Below, piece by piece: positions 42,360 to 55,760 of a stretch of DNA of 64,000 nucleotides. The notes below the pieces were generated by a model. The model was not told the origin of the DNA. It searched no databases and worked only from the letters and a program-made list of their open reading frames with translations. Origin of the DNA: Bifidobacterium thermophilum DSM 20210 (GTDB lineage: Bacteria > Actinomycetota > Actinomycetes > Actinomycetales > Bifidobacteriaceae); assembly GCA_000771265.1 (NCBI GenBank), contig JDUB01000005.1, positions 1-64,000 on the forward strand. The letters run 5' to 3'. A program made the translations under genes and the position numbers. Every line of letters begins with the position of its first letter. Within the stretch, counting starts at the first letter, position 1.

Positions 42360-43898
42360 ATGGCAGAAGGATTGTTCGCACAACGGCTCACCCAGGCGAT
42401 GAACCAACGCCACCTCAAGCAGATAGACATCGTCAGGCGTGCACCCGAATTCGGCGTGCATCTTGGCAAAAGCCATGTCAGCCAGTATGTGAGCGGAAAA
42501 ACCGTCCCGCGTACTGAAACAGTCAACGCCTTGGCTGATATGCTCGGCGTGAGCGCCTCGTGGCTGATGGGGGACAGCGACGAGATGACCCGCAGGAAGC
42601 CGGATGCTTCCACATCCCCGGAATCCGGCGAAGGCTCGCCTGAGCATCTCGACGTTAAGGCTGCATCAACGAAAGGAACCACCATGCGGCATTTCGGCAA
42701 GTCATCGAAGCTTGATAACGTGCTCTATGATGTCAGAGGACCTGTTGTCGACGAAGCGGCGCGAATGGAAGCCTCCGGGACCCATGTCCTCAAGCTCAAT
42801 ATCGGCAATCCGGCGCCGTTCGGCTTCCGCACGCCTGATGAAGTCGTATACGACATGGCGCAGCAACTGACCGATTGCGAAGGCTATTCCGATTCGAAAG
42901 GCCTGTTCTCAGCCCGCAAGGCGATCATGCAATACGCGCAGCTCAAGAATATCCCGAATGTCAGCATCGACGGGATTTACACCGGCAACGGTGTGAGTGA
43001 GCTGATCAATCTGAGCATGTCGGCGTTGCTTGACAACGGTGATGAGGTGCTGGTGCCTTCGCCTGATTATCCGTTGTGGACGGCGTGCGTCACGCTGGCG
43101 GGCGGTACGGCCGTGCATTACGTGTGTGACGAGCAGTCGGAATGGTATCCCGATATCGAGGATATGCGGCGCAAGATCACCGACCGTACGAAAGCGATTG
43201 TCATCATCAACCCGAACAATCCGACTGGCGCGTTGTACCCGCCGGAAGTGCTGCAGCAGATCGTTGAACTCGCCCGTGAGCATCAGCTCATGATATTCTC
43301 CGACGAAATCTACGACCGCTTGGTGATGGACGGTCTCAAGCACGTCTCCATCGCGTCCATGGCGCCTGACCTGTTCTGCGTCACCTTCTCAGGACTGTCG
43401 AAATCACACATGATTGCCGGATACCGCGTCGGCTGGATGGTGCTCAGCGGCAACAAGGAGATTGCGAAGGACTACATCGAGGGATTGAACATGCTGACGA
43501 ACATGCGCATCTGCTCGAATGTCCCTGCACAGTCCATCATCCAGACCGCGCTCGGCGGCCATCAGAGCGTCAACGACTATATCGTTCCGGGCGGCAGGAT
43601 TTACGAGCAGCGCGAATACATCTATGAGGCATTGAACTCGATTCCGGGCGTGTCGGCGGTCAAGCCGAAAGCCGCGTTCTACATCTTCCCGAAGCTGGAT
43701 GTCAAACGCTTCGGTATCAAGGACGACGAGAAGTTCGCGCTGGATTTGTTGCGCGAGCAGAAGCTCCTCATCGTGCAGGGCAGTGGGTTCAATTGGCAGC
43801 AGCCCGATCATTTCCGTGTGGTCTATTTGCCGAGAATCGAAGTGCTCAAGGACGCCACCGCCAAACTGCGCAATTTCCTGGCCACCTATCATCAATAA
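42360..43898 (+). CDS. HTH (Cro/CI-type)-aminotransferase fusion
   Basis: 512-residue two-part protein. Residues 1-75 are an XRE-type HTH (RLTQAMNQRHLKQIDIVR, SHVSQYVSGKTVPRTE, MLGVSASWLMG). A polar linker (76-108) leads to a complete fold-type I class I/II aminotransferase (about 109-512) with GNPAPFGF, the NPNNPTG motif and the PLP lysine K348 in SGLSKSHMIAGYRVGW. The catalytic part resembles alanine-type aminotransferases (AlaA-like). Unlike MocR regulators, the HTH is not GntR-type. An internal ATG at 42684 (residue 109) has AAAGGA 6 nt upstream and would give a 404-residue stand-alone aminotransferase. The fusion could sense an amino acid or PLP state (inference). Confidence 0.88.
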   Translation: MAEGLFAQRLTQAMNQRHLKQIDIVRRAPEFGVHLGKSHVSQYVSGKTVPRTETVNALADMLGVSASWLMGDSDEMTRRKPDASTSPESGEGSPEHLDVKAASTKGTTMRHFGKSSKLDNVLYDVRGPVVDEAARMEASGTHVLKLNIGNPAPFGFRTPDEVVYDMAQQLTDCEGYSDSKGLFSARKAIMQYAQLKNIPNVSIDGIYTGNGVSELINLSMSALLDNGDEVLVPSPDYPLWTACVTLAGGTAVHYVCDEQSEWYPDIEDMRRKITDRTKAIVIINPNNPTGALYPPEVLQQIVELAREHQLMIFSDEIYDRLVMDGLKHVSIASMAPDLFCVTFSGLSKSHMIAGYRVGWMVLSGNKEIAKDYIEGLNMLTNMRICSNVPAQSIIQTALGGHQSVNDYIVPGGRIYEQREYIYEALNSIPGVSAVKPKAAFYIFPKLDVKRFGIKDDEKFALDLLREQKLLIVQGSGFNWQQPDHFRVVYLPRIEVLKDATAKLRNFLATYHQ

Positions 43899-44015
43899 TC
43901 AGCCAAAAGCTGAAACCGTGGTCCCTGATGCTACGGGAACCGAATGCCCGTGTGTGATGGCGGCGTAACCGCGTGGCCATCGCATAATCCGGCGACCCTC
44001 AGTGTGCGTGTTCCA

Positions 44016-44203
44016 TAGCCGATTTGTGCCAGTCCACAAACCGGCTACGCTGCGTGAGTGGATTCCGTCATCAGTTTGTGTTGCATTACAAACTAGCTAC
44101 GCCGGAACCCCCTTTTCCGCAACCAGTTTGTTATGGGGTACAAACTGGTTACGCTGGGACGGCCCTTATCGTCGCCAGTTTGAGTAACACTACAAACTCG
44201 CTA
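44016..44203. repeat. Tandem array of four degenerate hairpins, period about 52 bp
   Basis: The stems start at 44016, 44073, 44121 and 44177; the shared cores (ATTTGT or AGTTTGT) lie at 44022, 44073, 44125 and 44177, spaced 51-52 bp. Stems are 13 bp with one mismatch (44016-44028/44035-44047), 8 bp (44073-44080/44087-44094), 11 bp perfect (44121-44131/44140-44150) and 6 bp (44177-44182/44193-44198). Each is followed by GCTACGC or a variant (TTACGC, GCTATGC). Outer stem pairs covary. On the minus strand each unit is led by GTAG or GTAA, reminiscent of REP-type elements. Confidence 0.75.
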
Positions 44204-44283
44204 TGCTGACGTCGTGATATTCATAGCTGGTTGGTGCAGCGGCGGACGTTTTCCCTCCTTGGCTCGACCTGAATATGCCGCTT

Positions 44284-44334
44284 CTTTCTGTTCCACCGAC
44301 GCTGACAGTAGTCTCACGTCGGTGGAACAGAAAG
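44284..44334. repeat. Perfect 18-bp inverted repeat with 15-nt loop
   Basis: The left arm 44284-44301 (beginning CTTTCTGTTCC) pairs perfectly with 44317-44334. There is no T-run on either side, so it is not a typical terminator. It may be a palindromic element or the fold of a small RNA. Confidence 0.6.
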
Positions 44335-44553: not shown

Positions 44554-45657
44554 TCAGCCGTTGACGCGGTCGATACCGGACTGGACATCAGCCAGCACGG
44601 AATCCCAAGAGGCGATGAACTTGGCGACACCGTCAGCCTCGAGCTGGTCGGTGACATCCTTGATGTTGATGCCCAGGGCAGCGAGCTTGTCCATGATGGC
44701 CTGAGACTCCTCATAGGTGCCCTTGATGGACGGAGCGCCGTTGCCGTGATCGGCGAGAGCGTTCAGGGTCTTCTCCGGCATGGTGTTGACCACGTGCGGA
44801 GCGACGAGCTCGTCGACATACTTGCAATCGGAGTACGCGGCGTTCTTGGTGCCGGTGGAAGCCCACAGCGGACGCTGCTTCTTGGCGCCCTTGGCCTCGA
44901 GAGCAGCCCAGCGAGGATCGTTCGCGAACTTATCCTCGAAGAGCTTGTAAGCCAGACGAGCGTTGGCGACAGCGGCCTTGCCTTCGAGGGCCTTGGCCTC
45001 GTCGGAGCCGTTGGCTTCGAGCAGCTTGTCGACAGCGGTGTCCACGCGGGACACGAAGAAGGAAGCGACGGAGCCGATGTGCTTGAGGTCGTGGCCGTTG
45101 GCGTCAGCCTGGGCGATGCCCTCGATGAAGGCGTCGATGACCTGCTCATAGCGCTCGATGGAGAAGATCAGCGTCACGTTGACGGAGATGCCCTTGGCGA
45201 GCGTGGCGGTGATAGCCGGAAGGCCCTCGAGGGTCGCCGGGATCTTGATCATGGCGTTCGGGCGGTTGACCTTCTCCCACAGTTCCACAGCCTGCTTCTC
45301 GGTGGCTTCGGTCTCATGGGCAAGACGCGGGTCCACTTCGATGGAGACGCGGCCGTCGACGAAGTCTGTGGCCTCGGCGATATCACGGAAGATATCGGTC
45401 GCGTTGCGCACGTCGGTGGTGGTCAGCTCGCGCACGGCGGTCTCAACGTCGACCTTACCGAGCTCCTTGAGCTGCGCATCGTACGGGCCGACCTGGGAGA
45501 GGGCCTTCTGGAAGATGGACGGGTTGGTGGTCACGCCAACGACGTTCTTGTTCTTGATGAGGTCCTGCAGGGAGCCGGACTCGATGCGGGTGCGGGACAG
45601 GTCGTCCAGCCAAATGGAAACACCGTTGTCGCTGGTGCGCTGAGTTGCTTCAGTCAT
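44554..45657 (-). CDS. tal: Transaldolase
   Basis: 367-residue transaldolase transferring dihydroxyacetone units between sugar phosphates, forming a Schiff base at a lysine. The lysine is K138 in NAMIKIPAT, with the N-terminal VTTNPSIF motif near residue 42. In bifidobacteria it works with transketolase and phosphoketolase in the bifid shunt, converting fructose 6-phosphate and erythrose 4-phosphate towards pentoses. The gene follows tkt on the same strand (117 bp apart), with AGGAGTAACACA before its ATG. Its codon bias suggests high expression. Confidence 0.96.
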   Translation of the reverse strand: MTEATQRTSDNGVSIWLDDLSRTRIESGSLQDLIKNKNVVGVTTNPSIFQKALSQVGPYDAQLKELGKVDVETAVRELTTTDVRNATDIFRDIAEATDFVDGRVSIEVDPRLAHETEATEKQAVELWEKVNRPNAMIKIPATLEGLPAITATLAKGISVNVTLIFSIERYEQVIDAFIEGIAQADANGHDLKHIGSVASFFVSRVDTAVDKLLEANGSDEAKALEGKAAVANARLAYKLFEDKFANDPRWAALEAKGAKKQRPLWASTGTKNAAYSDCKYVDELVAPHVVNTMPEKTLNALADHGNGAPSIKGTYEESQAIMDKLAALGINIKDVTDQLEADGVAKFIASWDSVLADVQSGIDRVNG

Positions 45658-55108: not shown

Positions 55109-55760
55109 GGGTTATAGGCCAACATGTGTGTCCAGCGGCGCGCCAATGCATGGGACACGGTCGTCACCTACCCAACTGGTTGCGCCGGGATCATCGTCAG
55201 CGCCGTCGGTTTGTGAAGTGATTGCCCAAGATGCGTGTCCGGTTGTGGAGCGTACGACAGTTAGGATCATTGTTCCGGTAGTTGTGTGCGTCCTGTACAC
55301 CGTGGCATGCGCAACTGAACAGATATAGCCGGAAAGTATCGGCACTGCAGCGTGTTCCGCGCCTTACGCATGCCCGGACATATGTAAAGTGACATTCCGT
55401 CACCCAGACAGGCTGGAAGATCTCCTACCTAGCGTGAGACGTATGCCGGGGCATACACGGCACGGCATATCCGAACTCGCACATATACCTTGCATCGCAA
55501 CAGGTCCGTGTGGGTTTCAGGCACCCATGCCTGCCCGGTCCGAACCCACAGACCAGAAGACCCAAAACCGCGACACACCCGACAGCACAACCCTTCACAC
55601 CCAATTCCAGACACACAGATTGGGCAATGCTTGGCGGACATCCACAGTCTTCATGCCACACCGTTAAGCAATGTCGTGTCCCGCATTTACCGTAAACGAG
55701 GTAACACACAGTCCAGGCCTGCACCTTAGTACCGCGGGCCCCGATAGCAAAGGACACCTC

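Follow-up and report, generated by a model that had tools for sequence, protein, structure and literature searches.

A palindromic array between two convergent genes

The window, a stretch of 64,000 nucleotides, carries a short array of tandem palindromes between two convergent genes, an HTH-aminotransferase fusion and tal (Table 1). Degenerate units in 52-bp phase had been described at this locus, and this description holds: the units are degenerate in sequence, their start-to-start distances are 52, 52 and 52 bp, and Tandem Repeats Finder reports a period of 52 at 44063-44203, counting 2.7 copies. The four hairpins drawn in the preliminary description fold better than shuffled sequences on either strand (z -1.9 to -5.9), but their register is shifted. 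Solitary copies elsewhere in the genome consist of a 44-bp palindrome, ACAAACTGGTTACGCT-N12-AGCGTAACCAGTTTGT, and its dyad centre is what had been taken for a spacer. In the window, a 44-bp unit and an 8-bp linker make up the 52-bp period, and the array extends over 44036-44235, ending at 44235 and not at 44203. The GTAG or GTAA that had appeared to lead each hairpin is part of a long arm (GCGTAACC).

Table 1. Features of the array and its surroundings in the window.
Feature	Position	Strand	Basis or remark
HTH-aminotransferase fusion, left convergent neighbour	42360..43898	+	ORF and gene call
Possible decayed family I unit, only the right half recognisable	43984..44027	.	In array phase; matrix score 6.6, below threshold
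Family I palindrome, unit 1	44036..44079	.	Covariance model, 44.3 bits
8-bp linker	44080..44087	.	Read directly off the sequence
Family I palindrome, unit 2	44088..44131	.	Covariance model, 49.2 bits
8-bp linker	44132..44139	.	Read directly off the sequence
Family I palindrome, unit 3	44140..44183	.	53.3 bits; closest of the units to the consensus
8-bp linker	44184..44191	.	Read directly off the sequence
Family I palindrome, unit 4	44192..44235	.	Covariance model, 42.1 bits
Diverged family II-like palindrome	44284..44334	.	Core ACCGACGCTGA; 18-bp arms, inverted repeat 100% complementary
tal (transaldolase; name from the preliminary description), right convergent neighbour	44554..45657	-	ORF and gene call

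The locus has a counterpart in B. apri, where the array also comprises four units and the homologue of the aminotransferase is 94% identical; B. boum and B. thermophilum gave no match to the window array. The diverged palindrome to the right of the array stays under the scan threshold for family II, the second family described below, while its B. apri orthologue (L031:5926), in the same relative place, scores as family II. A further, weak and GC-rich family I-like unit (29 bits, E 1.5e-4) lies at 55171-55214 of the window, directly after four tRNA genes in a row. At gathering thresholds, Rfam models matched tRNAs and none of the units in the window and four loci.

A genome-wide family of palindromes

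The window array belongs to a family that recurs across the genome, termed family I. Covariance-model searches of the window genome gave at least 150 strand-doubled matches, all such counts being lower bounds. A matrix scan of 46 fetched stretches and the window (388 kb) recovered 93 units at threshold, against zero in a single shuffle of the 388 kb. The 92 units kept (score of at least 22) form 56 intergenic clusters, and 31 of 36 neighbour intervals are exactly 52 bp; the stretches were picked around matches, and densities are not genome averages. Most clusters consist of a single unit (39/56), and four of the 56 hold four units or more. B. apri (genome G008, 100% identical to the named locus) has 147 units in 47 clusters at 35 loci.

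A strict family I pattern occurs 51 times in the window genome, 84 times in B. apri, seven times in B. boum and nine times in B. thermophilum. It is absent from the other 185 of 189 genomes of the bacterial family, 108 of them Bifidobacterium, and the reversed-pattern control gave no copy. A looser, first model finds matches in 12 of 112 genus genomes (E<=0.001). One three-unit array in B. boum (L222, 1969-2116) is nearly letter-identical to one in the window genome (L146, 3081-3228), variable loops included, hinting at recent transfer or strong constraint.

The idea of a dispersed, REP-like palindrome family, which had been staked on finding copies in related genomes, is supported by many copies, also in relatives, many of them between convergent genes, and by the fact that clusters reach into called genes by 8 bp at most. 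REP, BIME and REPIN elements are short intergenic palindromes that occur in many copies and mosaic clusters, mostly on the 3' sides of genes, and are associated with RAYT transposases; in REP, a GTAG-type tetranucleotide lies outside the hairpin foot. The bifidobacterial palindromes resemble them in being dispersed, intergenic, numerous, joined in mixed-family clusters and mostly on the 3' side. They differ in their fixed 52-bp dyad spacing, in their confinement to one genus as far as searched, and in the GTAA or GTAG of family I, which lies inside the arm, with no conserved unpaired 5' tetranucleotide. The proposed mobilisation by RAYT enzymes found no backing: a search of the window genome for Y1_Tnp (PF01797) was empty, while the identical search was positive in 5 of 14 control genomes.

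A second family and an apparently constant distance between centres

Family II is a 40-bp palindrome, CTTCTGCCGACGCTGA-N8-TCAGCGTCGGCAGAAG, often with the polar flanks AAC and CAG and mostly with 12-bp linkers. Among its 23 close intervals, 14 are 52 bp and the other nine 40 bp. As 44+8 in family I and 40+12 in family II each give 52, it seems to be the spacing from one palindrome centre to the next that is kept fixed. Neighbours of mixed type (I-II) lie 52 bp apart in 5 of 35 cases and 63 or 65 bp apart in seven, the remainder lying mostly at 84 to 102 bp. The orientation of family I relative to family II shows no bias (14 to 11), nor does that of family II relative to genes (10 to 7).

The family II pattern (12-base gap) is present in 16 of 112 genus genomes, with 64 copies in the window genome, 136 in B. 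apri, 86 in B. boum, 59 in B. thermophilum, 17 in G028, nine in G006 and at most four in each of the others; the reversed control yields at most one match per genome. A bridging variant, in which CAAACT is joined to ACCGACGCT, occurs in G028, G019 and G006, and eight of its nine intervals below 70 bp in the sampled stretches are 51 or 52 bp, the ninth being 62. With a model of all variants, matches appear in 31 of 112 genus genomes (E<=0.01), and 12 of the 112 have at least eight strand-doubled matches with a best E <1e-8.

Several observations concern the mixing and variety of these elements. Two units at L133 (2947-2990 and 3245-3288) are hybrids with a family II-like left arm and a family I-like right arm, which suggests exchange between families. 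On B. apri contig C34 (1000-32000; L195 and L196), arrays of the two families are packed unusually densely. Another intergenic palindrome, with the core GAGATNTTGAGA...TCTCAATATCTC, is found at L111:989-1026 and L131:2676-2711 and perhaps represents a further dispersed family. A CRISPR array was dismissed, since identity between neighbours at 52 bp is only 0.73 and solitary copies are common.

The RNA-level reading set out below has a serious rival in a DNA-bound protein array. A dimeric protein would occupy each dyad, and a spacing of 52 bp, about five helical turns, would align the proteins on one helix face, giving a cooperative nucleoid or boundary element. A cooperative protein array had been proposed in the preliminary description, and the 52-bp dyad spacing common to two palindromes of different length fits it, as do the 23 II-II intervals and the mixed intervals at 52 and at 63 or 65 bp. 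A similar idea is favoured for Bacillus repeats in the portion consulted of Subirana and Messeguer (PMC8161180). Against it, close I-I intervals in B. apri equal 52 bp in 42 of 93 cases, and the rest range from 50 to 129 bp with no clear helical rule; the sense-strand polarity reported below is unexpected on this account and points to RNA; and the binding protein is putative, the protein search having been limited to RAYT. We regard this array as possible but doubtful.

Age of the arrays and conservation of the arms

Neighbouring units are less alike at 52 bp (median identity 0.73, 73 intervals) than at other spacings (0.89, 54 intervals). Young-looking arrays occur in B. apri at 60, 61 or 87 bp, some of their linkers being 94-100% identical. 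Either 52 bp is the spacing that lasts, or 52-bp arrays are merely older. Unit number varies at orthologous sites (1 versus 5, for example, or 3 versus 1).

Most of the examined sites are old, because 26 of the 35 B. apri loci align to fetched window-genome loci, which had been chosen for bearing elements; nine do not. Over 13 orthologous unit comparisons (12 distinct window-genome units), divergence between the species is 4.6% in arms, 19.9% in loops and 25.8% in flanks. These results bear on the idea of a selfish repeat of the REP or MITE type, which an enzyme would have spread and slippage multiplied locally, and which would serve no function for the cell. Such a repeat would account for dispersed copies in related sequence families, for young arrays at many periods and for a strict-pattern copy number ranging from 7 to 84 among four close relatives. 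We nevertheless consider it improbable: the sites are mostly old, the arms diverge far less than the flanks, a fixed 52 in two families is unexpected, and no RAYT was found in the window genome. As to target-site duplications, a feature of MITEs, by-eye inspection of the flanks of solitary units showed no direct repeats.

An IS-like terminus, CTATAGGAACTAAACGTG, stands at eight contig ends (C1, both ends of C2, C6, C15, C17, C44 and C46), with a truncated ninth at C9 (L157-L164, L134); these termini are those of an unassembled multicopy insertion sequence. We make no case for targeting of the palindromes by this element: three of the nine sites, the truncated one included, lie next to or inside units and six do not.

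The pairing of the arms gives a divided picture. Outer stem pairs had been said to change together, yet there is no covariation of arm pairs within family I, and in array units agreement between the two halves is lower than for shuffled halves. At orthologous loci the preliminary idea of selected pairing is partly contradicted, paired changes being the exception: of 17 changed arm pairs in the 13 comparisons, 15 changed on one side only, and in the other two both sides changed with pairing kept. Half-sites conserved singly, without covariation, are in keeping with the DNA-bound array. In solitary units the halves match above shuffled halves in B. apri (n=13; arms P 0.0004, near flanks P 0.0002) and weakly in the window genome (n=38; near flanks P 0.016, arms P 0.08). 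From family to family the sequence differs and the dyad symmetry is preserved. In the cross-family test, whose related rows mean that few events are counted, 82 cells show change on both sides, where shuffling gives a mean of 35.8, and 0 of 500 shuffles reached 82; the number of pairs with two-sided change (12/18) is not unusual (113/500 shuffles).

Position relative to genes

With genes called by our own dicodon model, every one of the 56 clusters falls between genes: 23 in convergent, 25 in tandem and 4 in divergent settings, with 4 unassigned. Element-free gaps of at least 100 bp in the same loci comprise 17 convergent, 83 tandem and 34 divergent ones (convergent versus divergent, Fisher P 3e-5). 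In tandem settings the unit is closer to the end of the upstream gene in 16 of 25 cases in the window genome and in 17 of 20 in B. apri, and the elements are mostly in a 3' position. No common theme emerges from the flanking proteins: 19 of the 92 listed were scanned, of which 13 had Pfam matches, to unrelated kinds, and six had none at 1e-10. On the basis of these 19 proteins, we rejected the operator of a regulon.

Convergent and 3' placement, together with the A-stem-T layout of family I, in which ACAAACT would serve as the A tract and the right arm AGTTTGT, itself only partly T, as the T tract, recall bidirectional intrinsic terminators. This explanation is very improbable. No T tract follows the family II stem, and the sequence is conserved beyond what a terminator needs. 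Moreover, canonical terminator-like sites are at least as frequent in element-bearing as in element-free gaps in all four comparisons (10/46 vs 3/32, 8/27 vs 5/80, 15/42 vs 1/16 and 2/21 vs 3/44; lengths unmatched), which leaves replacement of terminators by the elements unsupported.

Strand polarity and a reading at the level of RNA

Beside co-directional genes, mismatched arm pairs on the sense strand are G-U far more often than A-C, with 71 versus 10 in the window genome and 139 versus 35 in B. apri; the two genomes share many sites, and their polarity results are not independent. The bias persists when counted by cluster (17 to 2, P 0.0007, in the window genome; 15 to 3, P 0.0075, in B. 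apri) and by pair position (9 to 2 and 12 to 0, respectively), several positions contributing. The sense strand is the better-folding one in 19 of 25 clusters of the window genome and 16 of 20 of B. apri, with mean advantages per unit of 4.3 and 6.8 kcal/mol. Control flanks show an advantage of 0.8 kcal/mol (P 0.16) in the window genome and a mean of 1.6 kcal/mol (P 0.006) in B. apri. For family II the G-U bias is weak (by cluster 4 to 2 and 6 to 4, with an inflated A-C tally; by position 7 to 2 and 11 to 2). In convergent settings 27 clusters gave a decision and 17 were ties; polarity follows the farther gene in 21 of the 27. The window array and its B. apri orthologue point in opposite directions (plus-strand G-U/A-C of 3/5 and 8/2).

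This polarity might come from a single asymmetry of the element combined with an orientation preference. Transcription-linked mutation is not favoured as its cause, because oriented intergenic sequence shows a GC skew close to zero (0.012, 0.004) and a mild skew of T over A (0.097, 0.072).

Tentatively, we read the arrays as transcribed tandem RNA hairpins near gene 3' ends, the best of the explanations considered. We postulate that read-through from a neighbouring gene would carry the array into RNA, where each unit would fold as a hairpin and the whole as a string of hairpins. Such a string would probably obstruct or direct the enzymes trimming mRNA at the 3' end, and selection would then act on the RNA fold rather than on the DNA. 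The 52-nt spacing may be the footprint of a putative factor that binds or processes successive hairpins. Local duplication would grow and shrink arrays, of which those at 52 nt would persist and those at other periods would not.

The reading as hairpin strings is supported by the sense-strand polarity beside co-directional genes, by the intergenic position of the clusters, their convergent excess and the proximity of units to the upstream gene's end, by the dyad symmetry kept across families, and by the transcription of 52-nt repeats in B. coagulans, as reported in the section consulted of PMC8625621. It is weakened by the lack of covariation in family I arms, by a convergent polarity that follows the farther gene and is opposed between the window and its orthologue, by the slight preference of control flanks for the sense strand, by the weak G-U bias of family II, and by the many sites shared between the two genomes.

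Relation to known repeats

We found no published report of these bifidobacterial palindromes in the open-licence literature, a scope that leaves out most subscription papers. In the parts consulted, the only palindromes named in the B. dentium genome paper are those of CRISPR (PMC2788695), and a B. breve transcriptome paper treats terminators (PMC5746004). An intergenic motif pair of Bifidobacterium animalis, GGGACAG(N)15TGTCCC, with 20 of 21 copies intergenic, is likewise a dyad motif between the genes of a bifidobacterium; it differs in sequence, and the consulted part of that paper leaves 52-bp arrays unmentioned (PMC5217627).

The closest known system is the tandem repeats of Bacillus and other Firmicutes, described in the consulted portion of Subirana and Messeguer (2021, PMC8161180) as having a constant size of 52 nt, variable sequence, several families per genome and an unexplained function, and as being restricted to Firmicutes. 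Shared features are the period of 52 (occasionally 51 or 53), the lack of a shared sequence, a unit number that varies between relatives, and several families per genome at one period, here I and II in the window genome and B. apri. By the length of 52 (51-53), the intervals that qualify are 31/36 in family I, 14/23 in family II (the other nine at 40) and 8/9 in three further genomes (51-52). A minimum of four tandem copies was set in the published search; the array in the window comprises four units, of which Tandem Repeats Finder counts 2.7, and four or more occur in 4 of the 56 clusters. The bifidobacterial elements differ in belonging to another phylum, the restriction to Firmicutes being the authors' observation and not a mechanistic definition, in being mostly single units (39/56) with short and degenerate arrays, and in their long palindromes, with arms of 15-16 bp or more. 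The gene-related polarity is a finding of the present analysis on the bifidobacterial elements.

Among the 18 consensuses of length 52 in Table 1 of PMC8161180, the only ones included in our test, 13 contain a significant dyad (P<0.05 versus letter shuffles); a few of the 18 are alike and not all are independent. The Bacillus and bifidobacterial cases are linked by period and dyad, not by sequence. A single conserved bacterial machine that works on hairpins of nascent RNA or on duplex might measure 52 nt in both Firmicutes and Bifidobacterium on palindromes unrelated in sequence and differing in length, a proposal that we hold to be rather unlikely.

The retention, in some bacteria, of tandem repeats that are exactly 52 nt long yet have no sequence in common is a puzzle raised in the literature. 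The bifidobacterial case extends the 52 rule beyond Firmicutes and makes the unit visible in its solitary state, and the apparently constant distance between centres renders the question testable in bifidobacteria through the length of the linker.
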